DNA of 64,000 nucleotides from Gautieria morchelliformis. Lineage: Eukaryota; Basidiomycota; Agaricomycetes; Gomphales; Gomphaceae. The notes beneath the pieces were generated by a model that saw only the letters and a list, made by a program, of their open reading frames with translations, had not been told where the DNA came from and searched no databases. Shown here piece after piece: positions 72 to 61,336 of this stretch (position 1 is the stretch's first letter; each line of letters opens with the position of its first letter). The stretch spans positions 124,001 through 188,000 of the forward strand of contig WHVA01000013.1 of assembly GCA_015179125.1 (NCBI GenBank). Direction: 5' to 3'. Made by a program: the position numbers and the translations under genes.

Positions 72-280
72 CATTTCACGCAGTGCGGACACAAACCGTC
101 TACGGAATGTGTAGTCATCTGGCGGCTGTATCATACATGCCGCATACTTCATGAGCTTGTTCAGCATCTCCTGAATGGTTTTCATGCCCTGCATGACCAC
201 ATCGAATTTATTTGATGCATGGTGGTAGGTCGACGTGTGCAGGAACCTTTTTTGAAGGCCTTGCATCACTGTTTCCAAGG
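72..280 (-). pseudogene. Outer G2' gag fragment (capsid region)
   Basis: Read on the minus strand this encodes the same capsid-like segment as G2 at 18665-18870 (LETVMQGLQKRFLH, then TYHHASNKFD, then MIQPPDDYTF), with several substitutions and a stop soon after. It ends at 280 in CAAGG, which is repeated at 20898-20902. Sequence resumes there with the next gag bases. It is therefore the left half of a gag gene split by insertion of G2. No function is expected from this piece. Confidence 0.85.
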
Positions 281-495
281 TGTAAAGGATGTCGATCTTA
301 GGACCTTGTATCACAAGGGCACTGCAGAGCTTGACCAATGAGTGGTATTCTGAATGCTACGTAGTGACAGGTAAGAGTAAGATGTGATGGGAACCGCTGG
401 CCGGTTCCCACGCATAAACTATACAGTGGGTCCCTAAGGGGCCCACTGGGATTATGTAATAACTATTGTACATGTAGATACATAGGTTATTTACA
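281..495 (-). repeat. G2 3' LTR
   Basis: This is 215 bp, TGTAAAGGAT to GGTTATTTACA on the plus strand, and nearly identical to 20683-20897. It contains two hairpins: stem TGGGAACCG with loop ctggc at 388-410, and CAGTGGGTCCC paired with GGGGCCCACTG at 424-449. Related LTRs at 22749-22952, 30201-30376 and 32873-33066 keep comparable hairpins with different stem bases. Confidence 0.9.
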
Positions 496-512
496 CCCAC
501 CCTCCCCCTCTA
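496..512 (-). other. G2 polypurine tract
   Basis: Next to the 3' LTR the minus strand reads AGAGGGGGAGGGTGGG, a typical plus-strand priming purine tract. It fixes the element's orientation as minus. The non-autonomous relative has AGAAGGGGAGGG in the same place (before 32873). Confidence 0.8.
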
Positions 513-532
513 TAGACAACTATAGGGGTCAA

Positions 533-2515
533 CTACGACTCATAGAGGTCATCCATAATGGAATCCTCTAGAGTGGCCGATACGATGACGCCGTCGTTGT
601 ACGGTGCCGGTGGAGCGCGTGACTCCTCTGGGGGCACCTCTGCATCATCGGTGGTGATTAGGTGAGGCTGGTTGGCCTCACCACTAGCGGCGGTATCTGC
701 TTGGGTGATGAGGCCAGCGTCCTCGCGGAGCATGGCCTCAACGGCCGGGTCCTCAGTCTGAGGGGGCCGGAAGCGCGCCAGCTCTTGGTCGAGCTGAGCG
801 TGAGTGAGGGGTCGCGGCACCGTGGCCCTCACATGGCTGGTCTCGAGGACCTTTTGTTGGCCCTCGCGGGCGGCAGCACTGAATGCCGCGCCGGTGATGC
901 TGCGTTGAACATAGTGTTCAATGCGTGCCACTCGCTTGCGAGTGACCCCTGCGTAGCGGGCCAACCATCTTGCGATCTCGGCGAGGGGGATGTCGTGGCC
1001 GGCTCGGCCCCCCATGGGGAATGGGCCCATGATGGAGAGCCGCAGGGTGGTGCTCTGAGGCGTCAGCACTTCCCTGGCATCGACGAGGCTCGACCATTGG
1101 TCTGTCGAGCCGAATAGGTCGAGTAGCCTCGCCATGAGAGGTGATGCGACCCCTTTGACCTGGGGCACAAGGGCCTTCAACCACATCCAGACATCCATGT
1201 CATCTAGGTTGAAGGTGCCATCCGTGTTGTCACGGATGGCTGATGGGATTCCTTCAGGGTTGTGTATCCAACCCTTTAGGATGGCCGCGATATCGTGCGG
1301 GGTACTGCCCGCTATCACGAGACAATCCCTTTTGGGATTGCGAGTGCGTTGTTCACGCTCGATGTGTTTAAATACGCCGATCATCTTGCGCATACGCGCG
1401 AGCTGTGGCGTTTCTTTTGCCCGCACTAGGAGTTCGACGAAGCATGGGTCGTCAAGTGGGCAGACATCGTACCATTGAGTATGATGCTGTTGGGCCTTCC
1501 CTACCGGCCGTGGTAGGAGGCCCGTCTCGGAGATCGGTGGATCTCCGAGTGGGATGAGTGTCCCCTCCCCCGGGTAGGGAGGGTGAACTGTCCCCGCTGG
1601 TGGAGGCAGGGCCACGCCAGGCCCGATGTACTGGGCCTTGACCTGTGCTATCTGCCATTGAAGGGCGGGGTTGTTGATAGTGTGCGACGATGACGCCGCT
1701 AGGTAAGCACTAATCGCACTTTCCCTCGCAATGGCTAGCCCATTGACGGTGTTGGGGGTGCCGCGCAATTTCTTGCGCTTTTTCTTTGGCTGCTCTGCCA
1801 GCCGCTGTGCCCTTTCCGGGTCGTACGTCTTCCAGACGGACGAGTCTGACTCCCATCCTTCTGGGACGCCGTACGCAGAGTCGGAAGGCGCGCTATGCCC
1901 TTCCATCGTTGTTGTTGTCGGGGTCGGCACCGACAATCGGGACGCTAGCCCCGATGTTGCGCACGCCGGCAAAGGCGCCGTCGCGCGAGGTGATGATGGC
2001 CCGGCCACTGGGTCCGTGGCCGGGTCATGTCGCGGCCTTTTTGAGGCAGCATGGGGGAACTTGAGCTGGAGCTGGGCTGCGCTCAGCTGCTCCTCGAGCT
2101 CTTTTATTTTGGCATGCTCGGCTTTGAGTGCATCGTCGCGGTCTTCAACCACGCGTTCCACCTCCTTGACCTCTTTTTTGAGGTCGTGGATGTCCCGGAG
2201 GAGCTCTTCTCGCGCGTCACGCGCGATGCCCCTTGGGAGCCATCCCCAGGCTGCCTCGACGGCATCGCCGATGTCTTCGTCCCGCAATTTGACCTTGTGG
2301 GTGCCTGTCGCGGCCCTTAAGTGCGCGGCGTAGTCCGCGCACGTTGCGCAATCGTCCAGGTGGACGATGGCGAGGGCGTCCTCCCATCCCACGATCATCC
2401 AGTGCTCCTGGTCTACTGGAGCACGGAGAATATCTGCGGCCCCCTGTCTTGGGGCCATTGCTCGCGTTGTGGACGTTGACGGATCAACGTCCATCCCATC
2501 TTTGGGGGGCATCAT
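533..2515 (-). CDS. Extra ORF of G2, downstream of pol, unknown function
   Basis: An uninterrupted ORF lies between the pol stop (2635) and the 3' LTR, on the same strand as pol. The first ATG is at 2515 (Met-Met-Pro-Pro-Lys), giving about 660 residues. The frame is open from 2632 without an upstream ATG. Visible parts are a heptad-like charged coiled coil (around residues 112-152, LKKEVKEVERVVEDR), a basic KKKRKKL cluster that could be nuclear, low-complexity Pro/Thr/Ser stretches, and a C-terminal half with W-x-W-L and RWLARYAG motifs. No signal peptide or membrane segment is evident, so it does not look like an envelope protein. I do not recognise the family. It is intact although gag and pol of the same element are broken. 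Confidence 0.7.
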   Translation of the reverse strand: MMPPKDGMDVDPSTSTTRAMAPRQGAADILRAPVDQEHWMIVGWEDALAIVHLDDCATCADYAAHLRAATGTHKVKLRDEDIGDAVEAAWGWLPRGIARDAREELLRDIHDLKKEVKEVERVVEDRDDALKAEHAKIKELEEQLSAAQLQLKFPHAASKRPRHDPATDPVAGPSSPRATAPLPACATSGLASRLSVPTPTTTTMEGHSAPSDSAYGVPEGWESDSSVWKTYDPERAQRLAEQPKKKRKKLRGTPNTVNGLAIARESAISAYLAASSSHTINNPALQWQIAQVKAQYIGPGVALPPPAGTVHPPYPGEGTLIPLGDPPISETGLLPRPVGKAQQHHTQWYDVCPLDDPCFVELLVRAKETPQLARMRKMIGVFKHIEREQRTRNPKRDCLVIAGSTPHDIAAILKGWIHNPEGIPSAIRDNTDGTFNLDDMDVWMWLKALVPQVKGVASPLMARLLDLFGSTDQWSSLVDAREVLTPQSTTLRLSIMGPFPMGGRAGHDIPLAEIARWLARYAGVTRKRVARIEHYVQRSITGAAFSAAAREGQQKVLETSHVRATVPRPLTHAQLDQELARFRPPQTEDPAVEAMLREDAGLITQADTAASGEANQPHLITTDDAEVPPEESRAPPAPYNDGVIVSATLEDSIMDDLYES

Positions 2516-2634
2516 CTTCGTGGGGATGATGGTGGTTAGCTTCCAAGAAGCGATGCGCCCTCGGAAAGATCCGAGGTGAAAATTTAACTGCGCCGTGGCC
2601 GGCGTGTCACGTGGTCTGCATGTGACAGACACGT

Positions 2635-4296
2635 CTAGCGGCGTCTGGGGAAGTCGCGTGGCTTGCTCACCCCCCGAAGCTCTAGATAGCTATCTAGGGC
2701 TTCAAGGTCCTTGCAGGACGACATGGGTTCCCATGTCACATCGCCTAGGGTCCAACGGATCTGGAACTCCAGGTCCATCGAGTTTATCCATCGATGTGCG
2801 ATAATCTCGTCGACGAGCCACTCCTCGTCGTCATTTGCTCCGAAGTCATAAAATGACTTGGCCTCCCGACGAGGGAACAATTCGTCGTTGTTAGCCTCGT
2901 ATCGCCGTACGAGGCTTGAATGGAAGACCGGCGAAATGTGACGGCTTTTCAGCTCGTCGGGAAGATCAAGGGTCACCATCGAGGCATCATTGTGAGCCTC
3001 GACGACGCGGTATGGTCCGATGTACCACGGGACTAGTTTTCTGGCTCTTCCTTTCGGGAGAGTTAGGTTTTGTGTCAAAGGTAGATGCGGTCGTTGGCCA
3101 CGTACCTGTCGCTTGCCATACATTTCTTGTTTGCATGAAACGTTTGCGTCACTTGATGCTCTATGATTGCATCGTGTGCCGCCATCAGGTTCCATTTTGC
3201 CTGATGTGCGAACCGGGCTACCCCCTTGAACGGGGTGTCCACGGCTATGGGGAGGTCTATCCGCGGCATATAGCCGTGGTTCAGCTCGAAAGGTGCGAAC
3301 CCTGTGGTCGCGCTGACGTTGCTGTTGAGGGCGACCTCAACCATTGGGCATTTCAATGCCCAATCCTTCTGATCATCTCTGACGACCGCGCGCAATATCT
3401 GGCCGATCGAGCGGTTTGCCCGCTCGGTGGCTCCATCCATGTGGGGATGGAAGGCAGTTGACATGAGGAGCTTAGTCCCCATGAGTCGCTGTAGTTCATG
3501 CCAGAAGATCGACGTGAACTTCGAGTCTCTGTCCGAGACGATGGAGTCGGGAACTCCGTGGAGTCGAATGACCTCCTTCAGAAACAGCCAGGCTACTCCC
3601 TTGGCTGACACACTCGTCGTGGTTGGTATGAGGTGTACGAGCGACGTTAGTCGGTCGATGACTACCATCAGGTAGTCACAGTCGTTGGATTTGGGCAGGG
3701 GCCCCATGAAGTCGATGCCAATCGACTGCCACGGCCTATCCGGAATGGGTAGGCTGTGTAGTAGGCCTTTGGGCCGTTGTGGTCCGGTTTTCGTCATCTG
3801 ACACCTCGCGCACGATGTGCAGAACACTTCTATGTCTGGGCTCATGCCCGGCCACCAATATGATCTTCGAACGTAGTTCGAAGTCTTCAGATGGCCGTAG
3901 TGGCCAACTATCTGATGTGCCCGATCGATGATGATTTCGATCAGCTTCCTTCCCCCTTGAAGAACAGAGCGGGGGATGGCAATGACGTCTCTTTTGAGCT
4001 GGTTCTTAGTCCAGATCAACCCGTCCCAGATCCTGAATCTCGGGTGCACGTCTGGGTGCGCCATGATCTTTGTGAACATGGCGTCCCTGTGGTATGCATC
4101 TCGTAGGACCTTAGACAGGTCTACGCCTTGCTCGACGACCCGGCGCAGGGGCGTGCTGTCATTTCCTGCGGCGATGACTCTGATGTCATCGTCGTCGGCA
4201 TCGCGTGACGTGGCGACATTTGCGGGCTCTGGTGAGCCCTCGTTTAATGTGGCGGATTCCGTTGCTCTCGCCTCTGTCTTCTCAGTGAGGCGTTTA
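2635..4296 (-). pseudogene. G2 pol, C-terminal part: integrase and chromodomain
   Basis: The minus strand encodes a gypsy integrase: zinc-binding HHCC region (HQIVGHYGH to CTSCARC), catalytic Asp in IGIDFMGPL, Asp in IVSDRDSKF, and Glu in DGATERANRS. After the conserved ARKLVPWYIGPYRVVEAH segment comes a chromodomain-like end (EEWLVDEIIAHRW to DVTWEPM). One frameshift near 3090 separates integrase (frame of 3075-4394) from the chromodomain part (frame of 2635-3195). The stop at 2635 is followed at once by the extra ORF. The upstream end is cut at 4296 by a copia LTR, so RNase H and most of RT are absent here. Confidence 0.85.
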
Positions 4297-4775
4297 TGTT
4301 GGGTGTATTTATGCTCCTGCACCAAAATCAAGCCAAATAGATTCCACCATTCATATTTCTTTTGATTTTGACTTGAAACCATGCTGACATTCATTCTATG
4401 ATTTTTCGAATTTTCCTTTGATTTTTTGAAGCTGTATTTCTACTTCTTTTCATGTTCTGTCCAACCGACCCTTTGTGGGTGGTTGTGGACAAATTTCCTT
4501 TTTGAGCTGCGGCTGTTCACCACTGTGGTACGTTCTATGGGCGCTTAGCATGGCACACGGTGGTACCACGGGCGCTAAAGCGCCGGCTAGTAGTACATGT
4601 GCATGAGACACATTTCCCTCCTCTCTCAGTGACAACTAAATTCACTGAGAGAGGCAAGTAAATTAGTCTTGTTTCCTTTCGATTTGTTGACCTAGAAATC
4701 CTGTAGTGAATTGATTTCTAGTCGTCTTTTGAGCAGCAAGTCCATACCTACTGCCTATAATTCCTGTCCTCTACA
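4297..4775 (+). repeat. Copia-1 5' LTR
   Basis: This is 479 bp, TGTTGGGTGTATTTATGCTCC to CTCTACA, related to but clearly diverged from the copia-2 LTR. It keeps the long LTR hairpin (CTCTCTCAGTGA paired with TCACTGAGAGAG, 4620-4653). The left flank 4292-4296 is GTTTA. No matching right flank exists because the 3' part of this element is lost. Confidence 0.85.
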
Positions 4776-5719: not shown

Positions 5720-5721
5720 GC

Positions 5722-11890: not shown

Positions 11891-11894
11891 TCAT

Positions 11895-16715: not shown

Positions 16716-17400
16716 GATGGGGCGTTACAGTCCCCATCGGTATCACCTGGCTCCTGAAGGTGCCAAGGATCGTGGCAAAGGCAGTCTTTGCTACGTGATA
16801 CGGATGGATCCGGATCTGCTTGTATGCTTCTGACATATCGAGTTTTGTTTGATACCGACAGTGAGCCATGTCGCTGCGGATGATATCCTGATCCGGGAAG
16901 GGCGTGACGTCCTTCACCGTGTTCTCGTTCTGCTGGCGCAGATCGAAGACGGTTCGCAATGTCCCGTTCTTCTTCGGCACACACAGCATGGGCATGGCCT
17001 GCTGCGCGACTGCCGGAATCCACCACTTTGCAGTGGTGTATCGTTCTATCTTAGCCGACAGTTCCTCTCGGAAGTGTTCGGGGCATTTCGGTAGTCGATA
17101 CCGCATGTGCTTGTTGGGATCGATGAGGTTGATCTCATGGTTGATCTCCCGTAGTGGCGGGAGTTATAATGGAATTCCACTGACTAAGTCAGTGATTCGT
17201 TCCATCCATTCCTCGCAGAGGCGAGGAAGGTCATCATCTGTGAGGATGATGGTGGTGGTTGGCTTAGAAGCCATTAGGCGCTGTGGGCGTCTATTAGGTC
17301 CCGCGGTGCGCGGAACCGCTTTCCTCTTCCCCATCGCTTTCACTGTTAGGTGAGAGCACCTCTCCCTACGGTTGTAGGGTGAGTTCGAGGACGAGTCGCG
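16716..17400 (-). pseudogene. G2 reverse transcriptase, N-terminal half
   Basis: The minus strand encodes gypsy RT blocks: LPKCPEHFREELSAKIERY, MLCVPKKNGTLRTVFDLRQQN, and YQTKLDMSEAYKQIRIHP (catalytic Asp in LDMSEAY). The consensus MGDCNAP is broken by a missing G (near 16735). The sequence ends at 16716 against the GypA-1 LTR. The YxDD half of RT and RNase H are absent from the window. An adjacent perfect hairpin with a 12-bp stem sits at 17387-17415. Confidence 0.82.
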
Positions 17401-17421
17401 GGACGACTCGTCCTCCTGGCT

Positions 17422-18044
17422 TCAATGAGCCAGGTTAGGCTTCGGTGCCCAGGTGATCCTGCTCACCCGTGGCCCCTTGTCCTCGTTCGTCGATCTGTCG
17501 TCATCGAATGAGACCTTGCCCGTGGGGATCACTTCGTTCCCCTTGCAGATCATCCCTGGGCTCGAGAAGTCCAGGGTTATGCTGAATCTCCTTAGGAACG
17601 GTGTCCCTAAGATAGCGTCGTAATATTCGACGTTCGCTATGTCGAAATATTCGTCGTATGTCTCACGACCAAATTTGATGGTCGTGTTCGTTCCATAGTT
17701 GATCATGGAACGACTGCCTATGCAGGCTAGCTGCAGCGCGATTGGCTGCTCCAGGGAGAATGTCTTCATCCCTGTAGCTTACGTGAATTCGGGGGATAGC
17801 AGTACCCCTTCGCTGCCGCTATCTAGAAGGCAGTGGGCTTTTACGCCGTTTATTTCCCAGTACCCCGATAGGGTACGGTTCTCACTGCGCAGGCGCATTG
17901 GCCGCGTCCTGTGTTTGCTTCGGTGGTGATACACCGGCTCGGCCGCCTTGTCTGGCTTGACCGACGTTCGTGCCGCCATGACTTTCGTGGCAGTTTCGTC
18001 CTCCGGCACGAATCTGATCGTGCTGGACCTGTAGGTGGTGTCTT
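17422..18044 (-). pseudogene. G2 aspartic protease region
   Basis: It encodes a retropepsin-like domain: LSGYWEINGVKAHCLLDSGSEG (catalytic DSGS), then QLACIGSRSMINYGTNTTI, and YYDAILGTPFLRRFSITLDF. A stop (TAA at about 17775) lies between LLSPEFT and the ATGMKTF continuation. The region lies between the gag zinc knuckle (about 18290) and RT, as expected for a gypsy pol. Confidence 0.82.
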
Positions 18045-19241
18045 CTACCTCCTCATCCCATTCATAGTATTGGGACGTCTCAGGGTCCCACTCTTCAGCG
18101 GGCGCGTCTCCGTTGTCCGGAGTGTCGTTGGGTTGGGGATCACCCTCCCCCTCTTCATCAATTTGATGGAGAGAATTTTGACCGAGATCCGTCTCTGGAT
18201 CTTCGGTCCCTCTTCGTGCCTCGCGGCCGCTGTCCTGATACTGGACTTAAGCCGGGGGCATTCTGCCTTCTTGTGGCCAGGTTGGCCGCATTCAAACCAC
18301 ATGGTGCTGCTTTGGCTGCCGCTGGGCCGATCGTTAGGCCGGCCCAACACTTTCGTTGGTGGGGCAGGTCGTGGGGACGACCCTGACACTTAAGGCTGTT
18401 TAGCTTCAGGCGGGCGTCCAGCTTGTGCTGGGTGTGGGGGCGGCAGCCGTTGTCCTGTTCCGCTTCTTGAGAACAGGCTGGGCCTGGTCAGGCCGGTTTG
18501 TGTCAACAGCTTGCTCCCTGTGAGCTGGGCAGCGCTTGCCATTGCTGCTGCGCTTTCTGCGTGGCGCATCTCCATGTTGTATTGGGATGCCTCCTCGATC
18601 ATCCGGGCCGTCTCGAAAAGTTGCTCTATTGAGCTGCTCTTGTCATTATAGCGCTTTTTGAGGACTTCGTTGCGCAGCGCTGACATGAACCGTCTCAAGA
18701 ACGTGTAATCATCTGGCGGCTGTATCATACGTGCCGTGTATTTCGTGAGCTCGTTCAGCATTTCCTGAATGGTTTTCATGCCCTGCATGACCGCGTCGAA
18801 CTTATTTGATGCGTGATGGTATGTCAGTGTGTGCAGGAACCTTTTTTGAAGGCCTTGCATCACAGTTTCCAGCATCCAGCTGCGGACCTGGCGATCAAAG
18901 CATTCTATGTTTCGAAGGAACCACTCCTGGGCTTTGCCGGTGAGGCGAGTGCCCACGTAGCCGACCTGCATGTCTATGCTGGTTGGCCCTATGAGGCAAT
19001 TCATTTTCAGCCATCGTAGGATGGCTGCCACGAAGATTTCAAACTCTTCGAGGTCAGATCCCCCGGCATATGGCTCGGGGTGAGCCAATTCCACGCCGGC
19101 TTTCGCTAGCACAGACTTCTCTGGGTCTGTGTCTGCGGCGTCTGCTAACGCCATTTGGATCATCCATGTGATCCCATCATACGGCTCCATTGGTACGATG
19201 TCAGCCTGGTCAGGGATTCCCTGGCCTTCCGTTGGGGCCAT
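18045..19241 (-). pseudogene. gag: G2 gag, capsid and zinc-knuckle part
   Basis: It encodes the gypsy capsid-like block: GSDLEEFEIFVAAILRWLKM, GKAQEWFLRNIECFDRQV, YHHASNKFDAVMQGMKTIQ, DDYTFLRRFMSALR. After a frame change at about 18390 it has the knuckle MWFECGQPGHKKAEC, where the first Cys of CCHC is replaced by Trp. The same protein is encoded by the outer copy G2' (72-280 joined to 20898 onward) with many substitutions. Confidence 0.85.
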
Positions 19242-20660
19242 GGATCACTCGCGCGGCTGTGACGCTGCACCGGGCAGGCTGTTGTATGCCCTGACGGGCC
19301 CCGGGCCCAGATCGTGCTCGGGATCGGGAGCATTTTGTGCTCTCGGTTCCGGGGGCGTTTTGTGCCTGGTGTCCCCGGTCAGTCCCGCATTGCGGATCCG
19401 CAGCCTGCTGTTGTAGGCTGCGTGCGCCTGCCGTGCGTCCTGTACGGCTCATGTGAGCTGCTCGTTGGGCAGCTGAGCGGTGTGGCTGTGGGCCACTGTC
19501 TCTTCAGCGTTCTTCGCTAGTAGCTCGAGTCCCCACATGTGGCGGCGCGCGGCTGCGGCTTCTTTATGCTGCCAGTGTGCGACTTCGAGCTCTAAGCTCT
19601 GGGTCGTCGTTTCAGAGTCAGGCTCTGAGGCGACCTGTTCCCTAATGATCTGTTGGATCGTCTTACGGCTGTCCGTTGGGGCAGCGGTTGCTCTTGAGGT
19701 TCGTTCCTGAACCTTACGTCCTGTTCGACCGGGACGGCTGGCGGCGGCATTCGCTGCTTGTCCCGCTCCTTTCGGCGTGGGTCTTCTGCGTTGTGACTGC
19801 GTTCGTTGGCTGCGGACTGTCGCGAGCTCGGATGAGTTGTGTCACGTTCCCCGCGTGGGCGGAGGGCTTTCTGGACGTCTTCCAGCGTGGCTGCGTCTTG
19901 CAGCCTGATCTCCTCCGCCTGGTGGAGTTCCTTGCCGATTGCTATTAGGGCGGCGGTGGCGTTGTCAAGCTGCGATGCCAGCTGATTGTGCTTGTGGTGC
20001 ATCAGCGTGCTTCGGCGCAGCACAGCCTGCACCTGTTTATTCAGGGCCTCTGCCGTCTCATGGTCGATGGCGTGAGCCCTCAAGCTCTTGCGACTGGAGC
20101 TCGAGTATTCCAAGCCCTGACCATTGTCTGGGGCTCATCTTTTTTGCTGTCGTCCCCCTTCAGGGACGATCGTCGTCGCTCTACTTCGTGAGCGTCGGTT
20201 CGAGTCGTGGCTTTGTGCCCGCCTCGACGTTGTTGCTCTACCGTCTGACGACGGCCAGACTTCTCTGCCCTTTCCTTTGTCTCTGGGCAGAGAGGAATGG
20301 GGGGGGCGGCGCCGGCTCGTTGCCCGGCGTCGTCTCTTCCTTGGCCATGCTCAACGAGATGTGGTCGGGGTTTTCCTTGTCCTCTACTGGGGGATGAGGG
20401 CGGTGAGATCTATGATCTCTCCATCTTCTATCGTCCTGGACTCTTGGTCCAGGGTAGCGTCAGCCATCGTGTCGCTGGGCTGCGCCTGGGTGTGGACCTC
20501 AAGCTCATCACTCGTGTCCGTCTTCGACTGCGTGGAATCATCATGCTCGCAGCCGACAGTAGAGGGTCTACTGGAGGGTCTCAACGATGTTTAGTCGTCG
20601 ACGCAGCGATCTTTTTCAAGATTGCTTCGAATCCACTATCGGTTGGTCGCGTGGCGATCA
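19242..20660 (-). pseudogene. G2 gag N-terminal region and leader
   Basis: Minus-strand reading in shifted frames gives SSSSRKSLRAHAIDHETAEA, EEIRLQDAATLEDVQKALRP and FRNEPQEQP. These are also recognisable in G2' (20898-22600) and, as a remnant, in the non-autonomous element (31905-32190). The upstream leader (MADATLDQESRTIEDGEIID) is conserved with G2'. Frameshifts break the ORF. The sequence includes a palindrome TGCGGATCCGCA and a hairpin CGCAGCCT paired with AGGCTGCG near 19390-19425. Confidence 0.7.
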
Positions 20661-20682
20661 ACCGCAGGATAGTTCAAAAAGG

Positions 20683-20897
20683 TGTAAAGGATGTCGATCT
20701 TAGGACCTTGTATCACAAGGGCACTGCAGAACTTGACCAATGAGTGGTATTCTGAATGCTACATAGTGACAGGTAAGAGTAAGATGCGATGGGAACCGCT
20801 GGCCGGTTCCCACGCATAAACTATACAGTGGGTCCCTAAGGGGCCCACTGGGATTATGTAATAACTATTGTACATGTAGATACATAGGTTATTTACA
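20683..20897 (-). repeat. G2 5' LTR
   Basis: This is 215 bp, with very few differences from 281-495, so G2 is far younger than G2'. It is followed by TSD CAAGG at 20898-20902, after which G2' gag resumes. Confidence 0.9.
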
Positions 20898-22748
20898 CAA
20901 GGTCCAGCTGTGGACCTGGCGGTCGAAATGTTCCACATTCGGAGGAACCACTCCTGGGCTTTGCCAGTCAGGAGAGTGCCCACATAGCCAACTTGCATGT
21001 CTATGCTGGTTGGCCCTAGGAGACAATTCATTTTCAGCCATCGTAGGATGGCTGCAACAAAGATCTCAAACTCTTCAAGGTCTGATCCCCCTGTGTATGG
21101 GTTGGGGTGTGCCAGCTTCATGCCATCCTTTGCTAGCACAGACTTCTCAGGGCCTGTGTCGGCAGCATCTGCTAGCACCACGTGGATCATCCGTGTGATC
21201 CTGTCGTACAGCATGTGATTCTGTTGTACGGCATGTGATTCTGTTGTACGGCGTGTGATCCTGTCGTATGGCTCTTGTGAGCCGTCGGTCTGATCCGGTA
21301 TGCCCTGCCCTTCTCTCAGGGCCATGGATCGTTCGCGTGGGGCAGGCTGTTGTATGCTGTAGCAGGGCCCAGGCCCAGGTCGGGCTCGGGATCGGGAGCA
21401 TTTTGTGCTCTCAGCTCTGGGGGAGGCCTGTGCCAGGTGTCCCCTGTCAGTCCCGCATTGCGGATGCTCAGCCTGCTTTGTAGGCCGCGCACACTTGTCG
21501 TGCTCCCTGCATGGCATGCATGAGCTGCTCATCAGGTTGCTGAGCAGCGTGGCCCTGGGCCACTGCTTCCTCAGCACTCCTTGCTAGCAGCTTGAGGGTC
21601 CACGTATGGCGGCGCGCAGCTGCAGCTTCTTTCTGCTGTCAGTGTGTGGCGTTGAGCTCTAAGCTCTCTATCATTGCTTCAGAGTCTGGCTCTGAGGCAA
21701 TTTGCTCCCTGACGATCTGTTGGATCATCTTATGGTTGTCCGTGGTGGCAACCGGTTCTCTTTGGGGTTCATTTCTGCTGTACATCCTGTTCGACCAGGG
21801 CAGCTGGTGGCGGCCTTCGCTGCCGGTCCTGTTCTTTTCAGTGGTGTTCTTCAGCAGCTTGGCCACATTCGCTGGCTGTGGACTGGTGCAAGCTTTGGCG
21901 TGCCATCCCATGTTCCCCACATAAGCGAAGGGCTGTCTGGATGTCCTCCAGTGTGGCAGCATCCCATTGCTGGATCTCCTCGATCTGGTGGAGCTCCTTG
22001 CTAAACTGCATGAGGGCAGTCACGATGTTATCAAGCCACAATGCGATATGCTCGTGCTTATGGCCCATATGGGCATTCGTGTGCAACGCATCCTGCACTT
22101 GTTTGGCCATTGCCTCAGCCATCTCATTGTCAATGGCATGTGTCCTCGAGCTCTTGCGGCTTGAGCTCGAGTATTCTGAACCCTGACCATTGTTGGGGGC
22201 TCATCTTTTTGTCTTCGTCCTCCTTCGAGGACGATGGTCGTCGCTCAACTCTGCGAGCGGCGGTTCAAGTCTCAGCTTCGAGCCTGTCTCGAACGTGACG
22301 CTCTGCTGTCTGATGATGGTGAGACTTCCCCACCCTTACCTTTGTCTCTGGGCAGAGAGGATTGGGGGAGCGGTGCCAGTCTATCGCCCAGCGATGTCTC
22401 GTCCTCGACCACACTTAGCGATACATGGTCAGGATTTTCCTCACCTTCAATTGGGGAGGCAAGTGTGGTGAGATCTATGATCTCTCCGTCTTCTGGCATC
22501 CTGGATTCTTGGTCCAGGGCTACATCAGCTGTTGCATCGCTAAGCTGCGCCTGGGGTGTGGTCTGCAAGCTGGTGGCTCGCACCTGTCTTCGACTGTGTG
22601 GAATCATCATGCTCGCAGCTGACAGTAGAGGGTCTACTGGAGGGTCTCAATGATGTTTAGTCATCGACGCAGTGATCTTTTTCAAGATTGCTCCGAACCC
22701 ACAATCGGTTGGTTGCGTGGCGATCAACCGCAGGATAGTTCAAAAAGG
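20898..22748 (-). pseudogene. Outer G2' gag and leader remnant
   Basis: This is homologous to G2 16-20 kb, in the same order: capsid block (GSDLEEFEIFVAAILRWLK, GKAQEWFLRM), then the N-terminal gag (EIQQWDAATLEDIQTALRLC), then the leader (ADVALDQESRMPEDGEIIDL). It has numerous substitutions, indels and stops and is non-functional. Some hairpins are preserved with changed stems, for example CGTCCTC paired with GAGGACG at about 22217-22234. Confidence 0.82.
21192..21271 (-). repeat. Four 20-bp tandem repeats in G2' gag
   Basis: Four units of about 20 bp (CGTGTGATCCTGTCGTACAG and variants CATGTGATTCTGTTGTACGG) lie in a row. G2 has a single copy of this unit at about 19170-19190. The expansion is specific to the outer copy. 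Confidence 0.85.
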
Positions 22749-22952
22749 TGTAAAGATGTAGATCTTAATGCCTTGTGTCACAAGAGCAGACAGAACTTGA
22801 CCAATGTGTGGTATTCTGGATGCTACGTAGTGACAGTGTAAGGTAAGATGCGATTGGGAACCGCCGGCTGGTTCCCATGCATGAACTGTACAGTGGGTCC
22901 CCAAGGGGCCCACTGGTATTAGCTAAGCAACTATGTACATAGGTTATTTACA
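22749..22952 (-). repeat. G2' 5' LTR
   Basis: This is 204 bp, TGTAAAGATGTAGATC to GGTTATTTACA, diverged from the G2 LTR by many substitutions and small indels. The flank on the right is AATTG; the other end of G2' lies outside the window. Confidence 0.82.
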
Positions 22953-23412
22953 AATTGTCCCTCGGCTAAGCTCACACACAGATACCTCAGCCCCTTCATA
23001 GTAGTCCGGAAGGTTGGGAGGAATGCATACTGACTGCACCTGCCCACATCAATGGCTTGGCTGCACCCAGTGTTCAATGTTATGAAGCTCCTCACAGCCC
23101 TGGAAGACCAGATCCCAGGCTGAAGGGCCAGGTGCCCACCACCCCCAGAAATTGTCAACAGGAAGCAGCACTATGTGATTGACAAGAGCTTCAACAGCCA
23201 CCTCCTACAGGGCCGCCTCCAATCCTTGATCAAGTGGGAAGGCTACAGTTATGAGGAGAACTCATGGGTCTCCAAAGACGATGTCCATGCACCAGCCAAG
23301 GTGCAGGAATTCGACTGGACTCACATGGGAGCACCCTGAAGGATTGGGTTGACAGCTTTCCAATCCATCATGTCCCATGCTTTGGGGATGCAGAATTATA
23401 GAGGGGGGTTGA
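22953..23412 (+). pseudogene. Degenerate GypA-like pol C-terminus
   Basis: Plus-strand reading resembles GypA pol from KLAHRYLGPFTVTRRVGRNAY onward: LHPVFNVMKLL, EIVNRKQHYVIDKSFNSHLLQGRLQ, and YEENSWV in decayed form with stops (for example after DQIPG). It is a distant, old relative and the host of G2'. Confidence 0.78.
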
Positions 23413-23756
23413 TGTCAAGGGAACCCCCTCCCAAGGCTATTTCCAAGCTCAGCTTCAGTTCTGACCTTAGCTCTGGTTCCAACCTGAGCACATCCCAAGG
23501 GCAGAGCTGAGTTCCCAAGCCTTTGGCTTCAACTACAATCCCAGAGCAGTGCCAGGGGTATCTGCAGGGTCGCGTGTGTCACGCAGTGGCTGCAGAGCCT
23601 TGGACTTACATCAGCAGTGGAGCAGGTGTCCTTGACTTTGATCAGGGGGCAAGGTATATAGGTAGCATGCTGGCAGCAGGGATCCACAGCTTCCTCTTTG
23701 GATCCTCCTTTGCCAGACTGCGTGACTTCCACTGTCTAGGGAGAGCTGCCCTTACA
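23413..23756 (+). repeat. Degenerate GypA-like 3' LTR
   Basis: It runs TGTCAAGGGAACCCC to CTGCCCTTACA, 344 bp. Ends and internal landmarks (CTCTTTGGATCC, AGAGCTGCCCTTACA) match GypA/GypB LTRs, but most of U3 is diverged or deleted. Positions 23757-23940 beyond it hold nothing I recognise. Confidence 0.65.
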
Positions 23757-24431
23757 GAAAGTGAATCATCAGAAAGAAAGGCGTCCATGGTTGGTCCCTG
23801 AGACCCAGCCACAGATGATCAATGAGAGCTCAGAGTCAGCTGCCCTGCCATGTGCCTCTGTGGCCATTTGGTCAATGGAGATGGCCCACTAGGGGCTGGC
23901 TTCCTGTAGGCCAGGCTCACCTTTTCTCTAGCTATGCCTATCCTGTATACCTTGACTCCAGCAATCCATGCCATCTCCCTCACCTGCTGGAACAGAATAT
24001 GCCCATTCTTGGCTTGTCCTTACCTGATTGCCTCGCTCAAAGTCAAAGCCACTGACCATGGTGATTGATGCCTCATGACATGCGTTTCCTGAATCTCACA
24101 TGCATTGAGGCTGTATCAAGACCATAACAAAAAGAGCTCATCTCAGATTCCAGCTGCTTGTCTCTTAATGCTTGGTGAGCCATGGCTTGGCATTTGCACT
24201 TGAGTGCCTGGTTTGCCTCATCTGCCTTGAGGTGATGCTCATGGGTGTGAGGGATCTGAAGCAAGTGTTAAGGGCCTCTGGAGTTTGACTGAGAAGTCCA
24301 GTGGAAATAGGTCCAATAGTTGCAAAAGCTGAAGAGGCAATATGAACATCTGGAGGTTGAGGACCAGATGTGAAGTTGATGGATAGTTTGTCCCAATTAA
24401 TTGAAGGATTTGTGGTATGAAGCCAAGGTAG

Positions 24432-28493: not shown

Positions 28494-30200
28494 ATGCCTC
28501 AATCCAGCGGGGCGACCGCGATCTCGAGCCCTATGGACGAGGATGCGGGATCTCGAATGAAAGCGGCGTTAGTAGTGTTCCAATCAGGCCAGAACAAGTC
28601 GATGAGGGCGGCGGCGACCACGTGGAATGTTAAGTACAGCACCTTGCGCAACCGTATCCAAGGTAATCACCAGAGGCTGTTTGTGCCAACGGCACCAAAG
28701 TTCCACCGTTGGTGGTGCTGATGAACGGCACGGAGCCAGAAGGTTGGTGGAAATGCGCTGGATTGAGCGGGTGAGTCCTTCTGTACACATACGTCCTGTT
28801 CACACTGATGTCTGGCTTCGTAGTGTTGCTTATTCTTAGAATGGCTGGACCGACGATGAGGTATATTTGGGCTGGTTCAGAGATGTTTTCCTCAAACACG
28901 TATCCACGAATAACCCTTCGGGCAAGCCTATCCTTCTTATTATGGACGGTCACAAATCCCATGAGACAGACGGCGTCCGGGAGTTAGCAACCAAGAATGA
29001 CATCATCCTCTACTCCCTCCCTCCCAATACAACCCATAAACTCCAGCCGTTGGACATCGCTGTGTTCAGCCCGCTTCAAATTGTGTGGGCCTTTCGATGC
29101 CAAAAGAGCAGCATTGAGCCGAGGCCAATCACGTGCAAAACCTTCATGAAGGAATATCTCGCCGTCCAGGAGACGTCCATGACAACGAAGGTGATCCAAA
29201 GCGCGTTCAAGCGCTGCGGAATCCACCCATTTGACGACCAGGTGTTCACGGACGAAGACTTTGGACCCAGTCTGTCTACGTCGATGGCCGGTGGCGTTGT
29301 GCCTGACTTGTGGTCGGGGGATCTTCCCTCCTCCCCTGAGAGTGCGGAGATGACGCCCGGGGAGGACCAGGAGAGTCAGGATAGTCAAGCGAGTGGCGGG
29401 TCTCCAGGTGCGCGAGGAAGGAATGACAATAACAAGGAGGATGACGAGGAAGATCAGGGCGAGGGCGAGAACGCCGAGGACGACAAGCACAATGACGAGG
29501 CCGAGGCGGGGATGGTGGAGCAGCAGGGCGATATGGATGATAACGATCCAGATTACGCACCGATTGTCCAGGACGAACCTGTAAGTCAAGCGTATTTCAT
29601 GTAACGTCATGTAGGCTGGTGCTGATCAGCTATAGGGCATGACACTCCCTAATCCCAAAGAGCCCCCTCCCGACTCCATGGGTGTCAAGTCACCCATTCC
29701 ATCCCTATGGGACTATCGGTTTCTCTCACCACCCTCATCCATGGATACCTCTTCCATGACATCATCAGCACTCACAGGCTCCAGTGGCCATCGCCGTCAC
29801 TCGTACGGCATTCGCAGCATTACGCAGGACAAGACGTGCCACCTAAAGCTCCTGAGCCGACGTAATAGTGCGGCCCACTCCTCTGCCTCCTCATCCCAGC
29901 CCTCTGGATCCAGTGCATTCTCTTCTCCTATGTCCATCCATGACTTGCCAGTCGAGAACCTGAGTGAGAGTCTCGTCAGCCAAATAAATGGCTTGTTCCT
30001 TAACATGCGTGCCGCCCAGGCAGACGCCAAGGCGGTCTGGGAAGAGAACCAGCTCTTGCGGGAGGACAGCCAGGCCTCACAGGCACACATCACACTTGCT
30101 GCCATGGAGATAGCTCATCTGCACCAACTGATAGAAGAGGGCACCAAAAAGCACCCCGCCAAACGGCGCAAGACCCACGCTGGCCCCCGGGTGATAACGT
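28494..30200 (+). pseudogene. Pogo-type (DDE_1) transposase gene, internally deleted
   Basis: The N-terminus (ATG 28494) has a pipsqueak-type helix-turn-helix (VFQSGQNKSMRAAATTWNVK, TLRNRIQG). After about 28720 the frame changes and the DDE domain appears in its second half: NGTEPEGWW, intron 28771-28839, NGWTDDEVYLGWFRDVFL, PILLIMDGHKSH (second Asp), LPPNTTHKLQPLDIAVFSPLQ (third Asp). The CENP-B-type HTH and the first catalytic Asp are missing, so it cannot be active. A 55-nt intron (29581-29635) leads to a Ser-rich and coiled-coil C-terminal region (LVSQINGLFLNMRAAQADAK). The reading continues at 33067 beyond an inserted element. Confidence 0.82.
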
Positions 30201-30376
30201 TGTAAAGAAGTGGATTCAGAGGGGGGGGGTCCACAAGACCCCACTGTATAGTAGTGCGTGGGAACCGCCGGCAGTTCCCCAGCTTGATCGCAGCTTAATC
30301 TTTACCTGTCACCATCACTACGTAGCATCTGAATTACCACAAACTGGTTGAATTCAGCGTGCCCTTGTGATAAACA
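30201..30376 (+). repeat. G2-NA 5' LTR
   Basis: TGTAAAGAAGTGGATTC to GTGATAAACA, about 176 bp. The last 20-30 bases are diverged from the 3' copy, so the right border is approximate. It includes the hairpin stem GGGAACCG (mismatched here by a deletion) and GGGGTC paired with GACCCC. Confidence 0.78.
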
Positions 30377-30824
30377 GGTATCAAGCCACTTTTGAACCTT
30401 CTGCAGTCTTTTTCAAAAGACTGCAGTGCAGATGGTGGTTCGCCGTTGAGAACGCTGTTGCCGCGATGTTCTCATCGCGGGAATATTCCGAGTATGAGTT
30501 GGACTCAATGATGGAGAGGAGGAAGGCACGGCTCACTCGCTGGGTGAAGGCGTGCGAGATGACGCCCAGCGAGGCGTGGTTCTGGGCAGAGGCCAGCGAG
30601 GAGCGTTGGCAAAGCCTCTGCAGGGCCATGGACGAACGCGATGGCATCCCTCTGGGACGCATCCACGCGCCACGGCACCTCCAGCACCCTCAGGCCTTCC
30701 AGCAGCCGGCCAGACAGGTCGGCCACGCTGTGCGTGACATGCAACGTGACGCCGCACTCGTTGACGCCACCTCCACCGCCCACACCGCGCATCCGCGCTC
30801 TAGGTAGCCCCAGGCGCACACGGA

Positions 30825-31830
30825 TGACGGCACACACTCCAAGGTGTGTGCATCCACCCTGGGGAACCCCCAGGAGCCCCCCAGAGCTGCGAAGGACCCG
30901 CGTAAGCTGCCTTTGCCGCGCAGCGTCATCCGCGGGCCCCAGGTGCCATACCGGCCGCCCTGCTCGTTCCCAGCGAATGGGAACGGTGGTGCATGCTCCC
31001 TGGAGCATGCATCCACCTCTGGGGGCCCTCCAGAGGCCCCCAGAACCGGCCAAACATCGCGAACGCCGGGCCCGGCGCCCGCGGCCATCCACCCTCGCCT
31101 GTGGCCCCAGGGGCTGCCCTGCTCACTCACAGTGAGCGGGAACGGTGGTGCACGCTCCTTAGAGCGTGCACCCACCTCTAGGGGCCCTCCAGAGGCCCCC
31201 AGAGTCGGCCGGACGCCGCGCCCGGCGCGCAACGACACCCGCGCGCCCCAGGACCCGTCCCGGCCGCCCTGCTCACTCCCAGCGAGCGGTAACGGTGGTG
31301 CATGCTCTGTAGAGCATGCATCCACCTCTGGGGACCTTCCAGGGGTCCCCAGAGCCGGCCAGATGTTGCGCATGCCGCGCCCGGCATGCAACGACATCCG
31401 CGCGCCCCAGAGCGCACCCCGGCTGCCCCGCTCGTTCCCAACGAGCGGGAACAGGGCTGCACATCCCAAATGACGTACACCCACCACTGGGAGCCCTCAA
31501 GGGACCCCCAGACGCTGCAGGGCACCGCGAAAGCTGCCCCTGCAGCGCCGCTCCGCCCGCCCTCGCTCGCGGCCGCATGCACAGCCGCCCCCGTCAGCGG
31601 CGGGTGCCACGCGGCGCACCGTGTCCCCAGCAGACACCCAGGCTGCTGGGGCTCCCTGCCGCGTGCAAGGGCCGGCCCACAGCCGCATCCGCGTTCGCGT
31701 TCGCGTTCGCGCGTGGGCCCAGAGGCGGTCCCGGCCGCCATGCTCTCTCCTGTCAAGGAGGGAGCGTGCGGCACGCCCCAAGGGGCGTGCATCCGCATCT
31801 GGGGACCCACCAAAGGTCCCCAGAAGCTCC
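30825..31830 (+). repeat. Array of about seven hairpin modules (period about 150-160 bp)
   Basis: Each module contains several perfect inverted repeats in fixed order: H1 (around GCTC...GAGC), H2 and H3, plus a GC palindrome. H2 examples: GCACACAC/GTGTGTGC 30830-30851; TGCATGCTCC/GGAGCATGCA 30990-31011; GGTGCACGCTC/GAGCGTGCACC 31147-31172; TGCATGCTC/GAGCATGCA 31299-31320; GCACGCCCC/GGGGCGTGC 31771-31790. H3 examples: TCTGGGGGCC/GGCCCCCAGA 31018-31044; CTCTGGGGACC/GGTCCCCAGAG 31326-31354; TCTGGGGACC/GGTCCCCAGA 31798-31824. Stem bases differ between modules but pairing is kept. The modules are open in several frames on both strands, so no protein claim is made. Confidence 0.85.
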
Positions 31831-31904
31831 TGGTTGCGGCATATGTCGCAACCGCCGCATTGCCGGCCCCCTGCAGAGCCACCGCCATTCAGGGTGGCCC
31901 CTAG

Positions 31905-32190
31905 GAGATCAGGCTGCGAGATGTGGCCACGCTGGAGAACGTCCAGACGGCCCTCTGCCCATGCGGGGAACACGAAGCGCCACGTAAAAGTGCGTGACAG
32001 TCCGCAGCTAGCGAACGTGGCCACAACGCGGAAGACCCGCGACGAAAGGAACTGGACAGGCAGCAAATGCTGCCGCCAGCCGTCCCGGTCAAACAGGACG
32101 TGAAGTTCAGAAATGAACCCCAAGAGCAACCGGCTGCCCCCATGGACAGCCACAAGATGATCCAACAGATTGTCAGAAAGCTGTGCCTCT
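31905..32190 (+). pseudogene. G2 gag remnant inside G2-NA
   Basis: Reading EIRLRDVATLENVQTAL, a stop, then SERGHNAEDPRRKELDRQQM, VKFRNEPQEQP and HKMIQQIV, it aligns with the G2 N-terminal gag (19592-20113). It shows that the non-autonomous element derives from the G2 lineage. Confidence 0.8.
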
Positions 32191-32289
32191 GCCTGCATCA
32201 CATGCTTGGTGTGCACACAAATGCACATCCGTTGTGTCCAGGTCCATGGACACAATGCCCGGCGACTGTATGCAGCCGCTGGCCCATTC

Positions 32290-32870
32290 GGCCATGAAGC
32301 GGTCAAGTATTGACCGCTTCGGTAATTTCCTTGCATAGGGCTCCTCCAAGTCCTACGGGTGACATCGTGTCACAAAGCGGTCAATTATTGACCGCTTGGT
32401 TATTCCTTGCATAGGGCCCTGCCGGGTCCTATGGCTGCATAACTGCTATCCTTCGCAGTTAGGCATCAATGATGCCTAGATCATTGGCTGTTCAGTTCCC
32501 CACAGACATCACCTGTCTGTGGGTTTGAGAGCATTCAAGTTGTTCTCAACCGTGGGTTTCAGTTCAGAGGGGGAAGAACCATGCCCCCAAACCAACCAAC
32601 CACCCACTACAACCGGGGAGTGCCGGTGAAGCCGGCACAACCACTGGTGTTCAGAATGATGAACACCAGAACAGATGTGTTGGTACTATGCCAACACATT
32701 TGCCATGATGCCATGTCATGACATCATGCCATTCATGTCAGATCTGAGGCATCAGATCTGCGGTTATTCTGAGGTACATCAGAATGACCTGGTCCACACA
32801 CCCATCCCTTTCTCAAGGTCAAAGGGGCGCTTCTTTTGGCTCACCCGGTGGGTTCCTTCTAGAAGGGGAG
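32290..32870 (+). repeat. Hairpin-dense 3' region of G2-NA
   Basis: Consecutive perfect inverted repeats: AAGCGGTCAA/TTGACCGCTT at 32297-32319 and again at 32375-32397, GTGACA/TGTCAC at about 32360, AGGCATCA/TGATGCCT at about 32461-32478, CCCACAGACA/TGTCTGTGGG at about 32498-32523, GTGCCGG/CCGGCAC at 32620-32638, CTGGTGTTCA/TGAACACCAG at 32644-32669, TGTGTTGG/CCAACACA at 32676-32698. No coding potential was seen. Confidence 0.8.
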
Positions 32871-32872
32871 GG

Positions 32873-33066
32873 TGTAAAGAAGTGGATTCAGAGCGGGGGG
32901 GTCCACAAGACCCCACTGTATAGTAGTGCGTGGGAACCGCCGGCGGTTCCCCAGCTTGATCGCATCTTACTCTTACCTGTCACTACGTAGCATTCAGAAT
33001 ACCACTCATTGGTCAAGTTCTGTAGTACCCTTGTGATACAAGGTCTTAAGATCGACATCCTTTACA
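32873..33066 (+). repeat. G2-NA 3' LTR
   Basis: This is 194 bp, TGTAAAGAAGTGGATTC to CGACATCCTTTACA. The 3' half is nearly the reverse complement of the G2 LTR, including TCACTACGTAGCATTCAGAA. It carries GGGAACCG/CGGTTCCC and GGGGTC/GACCCC hairpins. TSD AACGT follows. Confidence 0.88.
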
Positions 33067-34026
33067 AACGTGCCCCACACGGGCTGCCCAATTGAGGAAG
33101 AACAATGAGAACGTGAGGCCCAACAGGCTGAGGAAGCCGCCAAAAAGCAAGAGCTGGAAGCGGCTGCCCGAGCACGAGAGCTTCAACGCTCTCACAATGC
33201 GGTTTTAAAGACGTTTGAGCAACCCATCGCAGCATATAAACATAAAGACGACTTGAAAGATATCGCAGCTGCCTTCGCCCTGGACCAACAGGGGACTATC
33301 GCACAGTTGACATCTCGGATCAAAGAGTACATGACCCTCCATCCTGAACTTGCCACCAACCCTCGCTTCCAGGCGCTTTTCTTAAAAGCGCACCGAAGCC
33401 ACAAATGATGTGCATCCATTGGAGACTCGTCTGCGGAGGTAAATCCCCCTCCACCTGCCCTTCCCCCTCTGCCTGCTGTTCCGCCTCTACCTGCACATCT
33501 TCCCCATGCGTGCATGGCCCGTGGCCTGACCCCTGCTCATGACAGGTCATTCCCTGAGTTCAGCTGCGTCCCTCTCACACGAAACCCCATGTACGTGGGC
33601 ACCCCTGTTCACCCTGGCATCCCCAGTCCCCATATGCCCTACGAGGACACGGCCCGTGGCTTCACCCCTGCTCACGACAGATCATACCGCGAGTTGGGCT
33701 CCGGTGTCCCTCTCATGTGAAACCCCGTGTATGCGGGCACCCCTGTTCTCCCTGGCATCCCCGGTATCCCTCTGCCCCACGCACGCTCGGCCCGTGGCTC
33801 GACCCCTGCCCACGACATGGCGTATCCTGAGTTCGTACCCGGCTCATCCAGTGTCCCTCTCACGCAAAACCCCGGGTACACTGGCCTCCCTTCCTCTTCC
33901 CTTCCCTTGACTGGTTTTGGTCCCTCTCAGGCCAATCCCTCCTCCGCATATTCCATGTACCCTGAGGCATCCAGACGCCCTGATCAGTCCTACGACCCTT
34001 CGTTTTGGCCGTACCATCACTATTAA
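33067..34026 (+). pseudogene. C-terminal part of the transposase: SAP-like domain and Pro-rich tandem repeats
   Basis: One frame runs from about 33090 to 34026: a coiled coil (EREAQQAEEAAKKQELEAAA), a SAP-like segment (HKDDLKDIAAAFALDQQGT, IAQLTSRIKEYMTLHPEL), a Pro-rich linker, then three copies of a roughly 45-residue repeat with the core ARG-x-TPAHDRS followed by VPLTRNPMYVGTPVHPGIP, ending DPSFWPYHHY. In-frame TGA codons at about 33406 and 33718 interrupt it. The second stands where the sister repeat has CGA, consistent with CpG to TpG decay. It belongs with 28494-30200, split by G2-NA. Confidence 0.65.
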
Positions 34027-34094: not shown

Positions 34095-34572
34095 TGTCAG
34101 GGGACACCCTGTTTTCCATTTCCAGTTCCGACACCACACCCAGTTCCGACTCCGCTTCCAGTTCCGATTCCATCTCCGCCTCCGCTTTCGGAAATGATTC
34201 CGCTTCTGGGAGAACTTCCACCAGTTTTGTTCGCCTCGCCAGTTCCACTCCAATTTCCGACTTCCACTCTCGGAACAGTGTCGGAAATCAAGCGACTCGC
34301 GTAATAGGTGGCATCAAGGGTCGATCAAGGGTCGGGGAGGTCAGGGAGGTGCAGGGTTGATGGCGGGTGCCAAGTGTTGTCCCTGGCTGCGCAGCGTAGT
34401 ATAATACGGGCTCGCTGACATTGGGGGTCCTTAGACTTTTCTCTTTGGATTTCCCCTTGTCAGGTGAGAATCCCCTCTCTTGTATGCTCTGTTCGTTTAT
34501 ACATACTTTGGATTTCCCCTTGTCAGTTGTGTGGTAGTGTGATCTCCACAACTAGCCAGGGTTGCCCTTACA
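34095..34572 (+). mobile_element. GypA solo LTR
   Basis: This is 478 bp, TGTCAGGGGACACC to TTGCCCTTACA, clearly GypA family, with the TATAATA box and AGACTTTTCT motif. The flanks are CATGT (34090-34094) and CGTGT (34573-34577), an imperfect TSD explained by one CpG to CpA change. No second LTR or internal region is present. Confidence 0.92.
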
Positions 34573-61334: not shown

Positions 61335-61336
61335 GC

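Follow-up and report, generated by a model that had tools for sequence, protein, structure and literature searches.

The element and its Gypsy relatives

The DNA analysed here, called the window, is a 64,000-nucleotide stretch of Gautieria morchelliformis contig WHVA01000013.1. Judged by its sequence, it carries a non-autonomous LTR retroelement that is Gypsy-derived and related to G2, a Gypsy lineage of the same window. Outside its hairpin modules the element comprises:

30201..33066, plus strand: non-autonomous LTR element, 2,866 bp, TG...CA ends, a subgroup A copy; termini from a 39-copy comparison
30196-30200 and 33067-33071: 5-bp target site duplication AACGT, from comparison with 39 further copies
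30201..30385, plus strand: 5' terminal repeat, with a U3 common to the 3' repeat and a relic of its own R-U5, without a TTTACA end
30280-30300, plus strand: switch-like scar CAGCTTGATCGCAGCTTAATC in the 5' terminal repeat of the window copy
30466..30807, plus strand: 113-codon open frame without Pfam match, broken in several copies
31903..32176, plus strand: G2/G3-related piece, from self-comparison of the window (G2 gag side 19914-19648, minus strand; G3 21980-21709)
32230..32826, plus strand: hairpin region on the 3' side, with another 15 stems (6-14 bp), most of which a mechanical hairpin list also contains
32861..32872, plus strand: putative polypurine tract AGAAGGGGAGGG, assigned from sequence, adjoining the 3' LTR
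32873..33066, plus strand: 3' LTR, with its own U3 followed by a G2-type R-U5 ending CTTTACA

The Gypsy lineages to which it is compared are represented by:

277..4470, minus strand: 3' half of Gypsy G2, with LTR 277-496 and integrase open reading frame 3075-4439
533-2689, minus strand: G2 open reading frame without Pfam match
17380..20900, minus strand: gag side of Gypsy G2, with 5' LTR 20679-20898 and gag-like Pfam matches below cut-off
22745..22940, minus strand: LTR of G3, a second Gypsy subfamily and alternative donor of the 3' R-U5

A search of the organism's own genome (122 Mb, 1113 contigs), in which 40 of 1845 candidates were scored so that copy numbers are lower bounds, gave at least 124 matches, and 39 further copies were fetched. 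Both terminal repeats could be placed in 29 of the 40 copies, 15 belonging to subgroup A (including the window copy) and 14 to subgroup B. All 29 are flanked by a 5-bp target duplication which, judged by eye, is perfect in 24 and has one mismatch in five (11 and four in subgroup A, 13 and one in subgroup B). A Pfam scan of nine of the ten listed open frames of at least 120 codons inside the element gave no match, and so no pol or gag domain. The 113-codon frame is probably free of coding constraint: non-synonymous changes exceed synonymous ones, as raw counts rather than dN/dS, in all 16 ungapped copies, and several copies contain stops. The earlier note had described a non-autonomous retroelement tied to G2, and the tie holds, with a 3' R-U5 of G2 type and an internal piece from the G2 gag side.

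Two other readings of the locus were rejected. A coding role of the hairpin array is contradicted by module spacings of 143 (copy L033) and 277 (copy L031), which are not multiples of three, and by the absence of Pfam matches in the scanned frames; for these reasons the frames that stay open across the array are put down to its G+C richness. A DNA transposon with terminal inverted repeats was considered because the repeats of subgroup A differ, and is countered by a U3 that is shared within copies while R-U5 is not, as well as by the ordinary matching LTRs of subgroup B.

The surroundings are rich in other mobile DNA. Directly upstream of the element, the frame 28840-29601 has a DDE_1 transposase match, and a second open frame (within 28840-30205) enters the LTR element and stops inside it. 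The window's G2 is interrupted (4470-17380) by other elements; another Gypsy has reverse transcriptase, RNase H and integrase matches at 6920-10694, a Copia-like element has an RVT_2 match at 11898-12830, and G2 has a weak RVT_1 match of its own at 16714-17163. A 5.4-kb inverted duplicate pair of 97% identity (5238-10638 and 56410-61819) places a second Gypsy-type element twice in the window. A similar sequence of about 480 bp occurs five times (5239-5720, 16236-16716, 34095-34572, 55580-56061 and 61337-61818), and also beside or inside copies L035, L040, L043, L051, L052 and L067 of the element; it is possibly an LTR with solo copies.

Modules, covariation and inverted loops

The hairpin array consists of modules with up to three hairpins, H1 to H3:

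30828..30885, plus strand: partial module (H2-H3 half), with H2 30830-30851 and part of H3
30938..31044, plus strand: module 1, H1 30965-30985, H2 30988-31013, H3 31018-31044
31098..31203, plus strand: module 2, H1 31118-31140, H2 31147-31172, H3 31176-31204
31247..31353, plus strand: module 3, H2 31297-31322, H3 31326-31354, H1 weaker
31406..31512, plus strand: module 4, H1 31427-31449 intact, H2 broken (TGCACATCCCAAATGACGTACA), H3 imperfect
31718..31824, plus strand: module 5, H1 31742-31765, H2 31771-31790, H3 31795-31827

The loops of full modules measure 3 nt in H1, 2-4 nt in H2 and 7 nt in H3. With stems of at least 9 bp and loops of 2-8 nt, eight perfect hairpins lie between 30825 and 31860, where 200 dinucleotide shuffles gave 0.12 on average and never more than 1; for the same stem length the whole element has 17 (0.11 in shuffles) and its 3' region seven (0.00). 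The array reported by the earlier note is thus real, and the stems that it quoted lie where it placed them. Its count of about seven modules becomes six by nhmmer, five full and one partial, and its period of 150-160 bp holds for three of the start-to-start spacings of the five full modules (159, 150 and 159), whereas the fourth is 312, with the spacer 31560-31710, whose folding is hardly out of the ordinary (z -1.3 and -1.2), lying between. The claim that every module carries the same perfect inverted repeats fails at 31406-31512, where H2 is broken and H3 imperfect. An ARAGORN tRNA-Pro call on the minus strand (31391-31475) overlaps this hairpin module and is probably a false positive to which the hairpins gave rise.

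With a profile seeded by the five window modules and rebuilt once, nhmmer found 199 modules distributed over all 40 copies, with one to seven per copy and four to six in 35 copies. Of these, 57 have gaps or insertions and are dropped, and the haplotype and tree counts use the remaining 142 full modules, to which 39 of the 40 copies contribute; a separate alignment holds 49 of the 199, namely the 107-nt modules from plus-oriented loci and the window. In both sets the compensatory stem differences described earlier are borne out, and covariation is above background. Across the 142 modules there are 20 co-substitution branches, compared with 8.0 +/- 2.9 (maximum 18 in 2000 draws) in a tree null of column pairs matched for number of changes and with 3-13 when partners are slid, all branch counts being approximate since modules recombine. 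Double changes from one pair to another number 13, against 0-3 with slid partners, and 10 of the 13 are placed on internal branches. In the 49-sequence alignment the share of cells that pair is 88.7% (shuffles 85.4%), and only 77.4% within H1; double-change cells number 73 against 31.8, and the covariation score of 0.194 (0.130 in shuffles) was reached by none of 500 shuffles. The same alignment shows no excess over shuffles in double-change pairs (9 against 8.4) or in further pair types (21 against 22.3), and RNAalifold predicts 19 pairs from it, six with a double change, the covariation term contributing -1.61 of -16.74 kcal/mol.

Covariation is therefore real, and it rests on few pairs that were inherited by many modules. 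The covarying pairs, counted from 0, are pairs 4, 6, 7 and 9 of H2 and pair 7 of H3. Few intermediates are found among the 142 modules at H2 pair 6 (120 CG, 20 TA, 1 CA, 1 GG), at H2 pair 7 (82 TA, 58 CG, 1 CT, 1 GG) and at H3 pair 7 (83 AT, 58 GC, 1 GT), while H2 pairs 4, 5 and 9 have many. At H2 pairs 4 and 5, CpG decay can mimic some of the double changes.

The orientation of H1 and H2 is free. H1 occurs as GCTCGCT-CCC-AGCGAGC and as GCTCGCT-GGG-AGCGAGC, H2 as ...CTCCTTAGAG... and as ...CTCTAAGGAG..., with TT or AA at its centre. Among the 142 modules the H1 loop is CCC in 91, GGG in six and something else in 45, and the H2 centre is AA in 53, TT in 38 and something else in 51. Exact reverse-complement haplotype pairs number 13 in total, five among the 59 distinct haplotypes of H1 and eight among the 78 of H2, and some of them mirror the stem mismatches too. 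H3, the most conserved hairpin, shows no inversion among 43 distinct haplotypes. On a tree built without the loop columns, the loop windows of H1 (7 columns) and H2 (10 columns) undergo 36 changes that affect at least two bases, and 18 of these are inversions; five of the 18 fall on internal branches and 13 on tips, and one fits at inner loop positions only. Triple-adjacent transversions are confined to the H1 loop (five branches), and double-adjacent ones fall on 13 branches in the H2 loop and on 5 and 5 in the H1 loop, compared with at most two per start column elsewhere.

The inversion tests covered H1 to H3 and 15 hairpins of the 3' region, other hairpins in 30260-30483 and 31208-31853 being outside their scope; the 3'-region counts exclude L062, L067 and L041, which are truncated or misaligned. 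The 3'-region hairpin at 32620-32638 has its loop flipped from GAA to TTC in copy L035, and the one at 32672 has a one-base centre flip. A multi-base flip is thus absent from 14 of the 15 tested hairpins, and any flip from 13.

An RNA helix tolerates G.U mismatches and not A.C, whereas a DNA-level process treats both alike. No excess of G.U over A.C is seen in the modules, in the tree changes or in the 3' region. In cells of distinct haplotypes the ratio of G.U to A.C is 99:101 (H1 52:36, H2 38:46, H3 9:19). Tree changes away from Watson-Crick pairing divide 20:27 on internal branches and 53:46 on tips, and the 3' region has 12:12 among variants shared by at least three copies, 4:3 among those shared by two and 19:19 among private ones. 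Constraint on the stems appears weak or absent. In the 3' region, 302 stem columns hold 75 private and 35 shared variants, and 300 other columns hold 78 and 46; in the modules, the 54 stem columns have 271 changes and the 53 others 364, so that the stem columns change somewhat less and some constraint is possible.

Folding is stronger than in shuffled sequence on both strands. In the five array tiles, plus-strand z runs from -3.8 to -7.3 and minus-strand z from -3.9 to -6.4; in the four 3'-region tiles the ranges are -5.1 to -5.5 and -3.1 to -5.6, the plus strand being the stronger in seven of these nine hairpin tiles. Two of three controls outside are near zero; the third, 33300-33450, reaches z -3.2 on the minus strand. 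Rfam gave no gathering-level match over the whole window and two sub-threshold matches in 30150-33100 (E 0.18 and 0.21), and the H3 pattern is absent from the viral contigs searched.

Hairpins are not restricted to the element. Perfect hairpins of at least 8 bp number 22 in the element against 0.39 expected from shuffles, 13 against 0.42 and six against 0.31 in the two parts of G2 (277..4470 and 17380..20900), and three against 0.27 in G3, where no stem reaches 9 bp. Eight other segments, including another Gypsy and a Copia, have zero to two such hairpins against 0.28-1.13, so that among the 12 segments tested (which leave aside 4470-5720, 10638-10900, 15400-17380, 22960-24000, 33066-34000 and everything after 61337) the excess is confined to the element and G2/G3. 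Six G2 hairpins, at 1217, 1526, 2000, 2470, 2893 and 3343, lie inside open reading frames. The loop is fully reversed in at least five genome copies of the hairpin 2470-2493 and in at least one of the hairpin 1526-1549, and no reversed loop was found among genome copies of the hairpin 1217-1240 with up to two mismatches allowed. The unreversed patterns at 2470, 1526 and 1217 occur at 568, 437 and 347 places with up to three mismatches; since the searches for reversed loops were stricter (one mismatch allowed at 2470, two at 1526 and 1217), the counts of reversed loops are minimum values and should not be read as exact fractions of these. Five further copies of the hairpin 2470-2493 are one base short of a reversed loop, and a stepwise change is therefore possible there.

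Mosaic terminal repeats

Ordinary LTR replication makes both repeats of an element alike. In subgroup B the two LTRs of one copy are 97.7% identical on average (0.977, 14 copies). In subgroup A the U3 segments are more similar within a copy than between copies, by a small difference (0.976 against 0.968, permutation p 0.0001, 14 copies), and private U3 variants are common to both repeats in L032, L036, L063, L064 and L065. R-U5 behaves otherwise: the identity of a copy's own 5' R-U5 to its 3' R-U5 is 0.606, against 0.880 among 5' and 0.889 among 3' segments (p 0.86). The comparison drops L066, whose 3' repeat start was mis-set, keeps L046 though an insertion breaks its 5' repeat, and excludes the poly-G columns of the terminal repeat from U3.

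The nearest relative of the subgroup A 3' R-U5 is G2 in eight copies (0.94-0.99) and G3 in five (0.86-0.93; only narrowly in L064), with a tie in L065. The 5' R-U5 is 0.48-0.68 identical to either partner and passes into the internal region without a CTTTACA end. Where a primer-binding site would be expected, G2, G3 and subgroup B have the LTR end TTTACA followed by C(C/T)TTTTTGA...; in the subgroup A copies inspected this LTR end is missing and a degraded motif is kept. The junction of U3 and R-U5 (CAGCTT) follows the TATA-like TATAG at 30247 by 39 nt, and is presumably the place where the transcript would start.

This pattern would fit a subgroup in which strong-stop DNA of a partner primes each cycle. 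Minus strong-stop DNA (R-U5) of the partner would be transferred onto the 3' R of the parasite, and the finished minus strand would anneal back via R, with U3 being copied to the 5' end and the old 5' R-U5 staying in place. Imprecise annealing would be expected to leave scars of the kind seen in the window copy and in L037, both of which carry a switch-like one. Later conversion of the 3' LTRs by G2 was rejected by argument only, as it needs an identical stop point everywhere and an untouched 5' repeat.

TRIM, LARD and BARE-2 elements have TG...CA ends, a polypurine tract and target site duplications, lack pol and depend on a partner. The present element resembles them in its TG...CA ends, its apparent polypurine tract, its target site duplication, the absence of any pol found and its likely dependence on a partner. 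Subgroup A departs from them in that its terminal repeats differ and the junction between LTR end and primer site is not intact. Inter-element recombination is described for ONSEN recombinant LTRs (PMC5668417) and for Triticeae elements (PMC1950507), the causes named being abnormal template switching or the reverse transcription of RNAs packaged together. Those products are pairwise mosaics or fusions, whereas the subgroup A pattern is fixed, with U3 shared, the 3' R-U5 of partner type and the 5' R-U5 its own. A search of the literature, in such portions of it as were accessible, turned up no description of an element with mosaic repeats of this kind, which is no proof of absence.

What keeps the stems complementary

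We regard it as probable that template switching between the arms of inverted repeats, presumably during reverse transcription of the element, mainly keeps the stems complementary. The growing strand would switch between the two arms during copying; with one arm as template for the other, paired changes would arise in one step, and a switch that spans the loop would invert the loop or the whole hairpin. Template switching is favoured as the main force because arm homogenisation and inversion of the spacer or loop are published outcomes of it. PMC8604942 reports both from Saccharomyces coding genes, with polymerase template switching as the source, and gives ten spacer inversions over the genes of many strains; the same two outcomes are met here, but within one mobile family with many hairpins and with the same hairpin flipping repeatedly. 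For rRNA hairpins, PMC8794818 names as footprints compensatory changes that arise at once, several paired changes together and inversion of the full loop; it counts inversion together with compensatory change six times and inversion alone 69 times, and describes the loops as highly conserved. The footprints are the same here, but the loops of H1 and H2 have flipped repeatedly, and the retroelement that carries them has no known RNA function. Flips in every hairpin would be a stricter demand than the definition in these papers, and are not what we see, H3 and 13 of the 15 3'-region hairpins having none. Clustered palindromic motifs are also known from non-coding parts of Sirevirus LTR retroelements (PMC2829016), where most boxes share a CGG-CCG core and most lie in LTRs or near the envelope gene. 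The clustering is alike, but here the stems vary and hairpins are also present in open frames of the partner.

The earlier note had offered two readings, a structured RNA and a product of template-switch correction of palindromes, and the loop and whole-hairpin inversions in H1 and H2 speak for the second. A structured RNA serving packaging, dimerisation, protection or regulation, with pairing selected in transposition-competent RNAs, is unlikely to be the main cause. It would account for covariation above background, yet the covariation term in RNAalifold is small (-1.61 of -16.74 kcal/mol), and G.U mismatches, which a helix should tolerate, are no more frequent than A.C. It would also account for the strong plus-strand folding of the array tiles and its advantage in seven of nine tiles, but the minus strand of the array is likewise far from shuffles (z -3.9 to -6.4). 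The presence of modules in every one of the 40 copies, the placing of 10 of the 13 pair-to-pair double changes on internal branches and the lack of a multi-base loop flip in 14 of 15 3'-region hairpins are what selection on an RNA would lead one to expect; recurrent loop inversions that leave the orientation of H1 and H2 free, 3'-region stems that are not clearly less variable than their surroundings and the lack of an Rfam family at threshold are not. The symmetry of the mismatches would suit a constraint at the level of DNA, such as protein sites or cruciforms under selection, but stems that differ between modules and subfamilies, and hence provide no fixed motif, together with palindromes inside Gypsy open frames, make this improbable.

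It is possible to imagine that covariation arose only because modules, each palindromic by chance in its ancestral form, were duplicated or converted. The number per copy, varying from 1 to 7, does indicate that modules duplicate, are lost or recombine; however, such copying does not yield exact inversions of single hairpins within modules that otherwise keep the same strand, and 17 hairpins where shuffles expect 0.1 make chance palindromes hardly credible. A scenario that differs from ours in place only has the template switching occur while the host replicates its DNA or repairs integrated copies. For cellular DNA, PMC8604942 and PMC8794818 document the mechanism, and 13 of 18 inversions lie on tips, but eight other window segments show no hairpin excess and five of the 18 inversions lie on internal branches, so that we think host replication a somewhat unlikely setting.

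Template switching during the element's own reverse transcription would take place inside its particles rather than in host replication, the one ground for this setting being the restriction of the hairpin excess to the lineage. A strong function of the RNA shape would not be required. Selection for pairing may add to template switching, since 10 of the 13 pair-to-pair changes are internal and folding is more often the stronger on the plus strand. A single simple process is opposed by H3, which never flips, and by the 3' region, where one hairpin in 15 has a multi-base flip.

More tentatively, the hairpins and the terminal repeats can be read together. In a Gypsy lineage, reverse transcription would write, repair and flip short palindromes all along the sequence, open reading frames included, and a related parasite that has lost a primer end of its own would use partner R-U5. 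In each cycle first-strand transfer would supply the parasite with this R-U5 from one or the other of two partners, and its 5' end would be rebuilt by annealing in R and not at the primer site.

The hairpin array is unusual, and its best explanation is a mutational process that is already known and is strongly at work in a single retroelement lineage. The usual case for a functional RNA is built on covariation; since covariation occurs here together with flipped loops and symmetric mismatches, the locus is a test case for separating the two causes. Template switching during retroelement copying becomes measurable in one high-copy family, and the mosaic repeats suggest a route by which a non-autonomous LTR element may survive without a primer-site end of its own.
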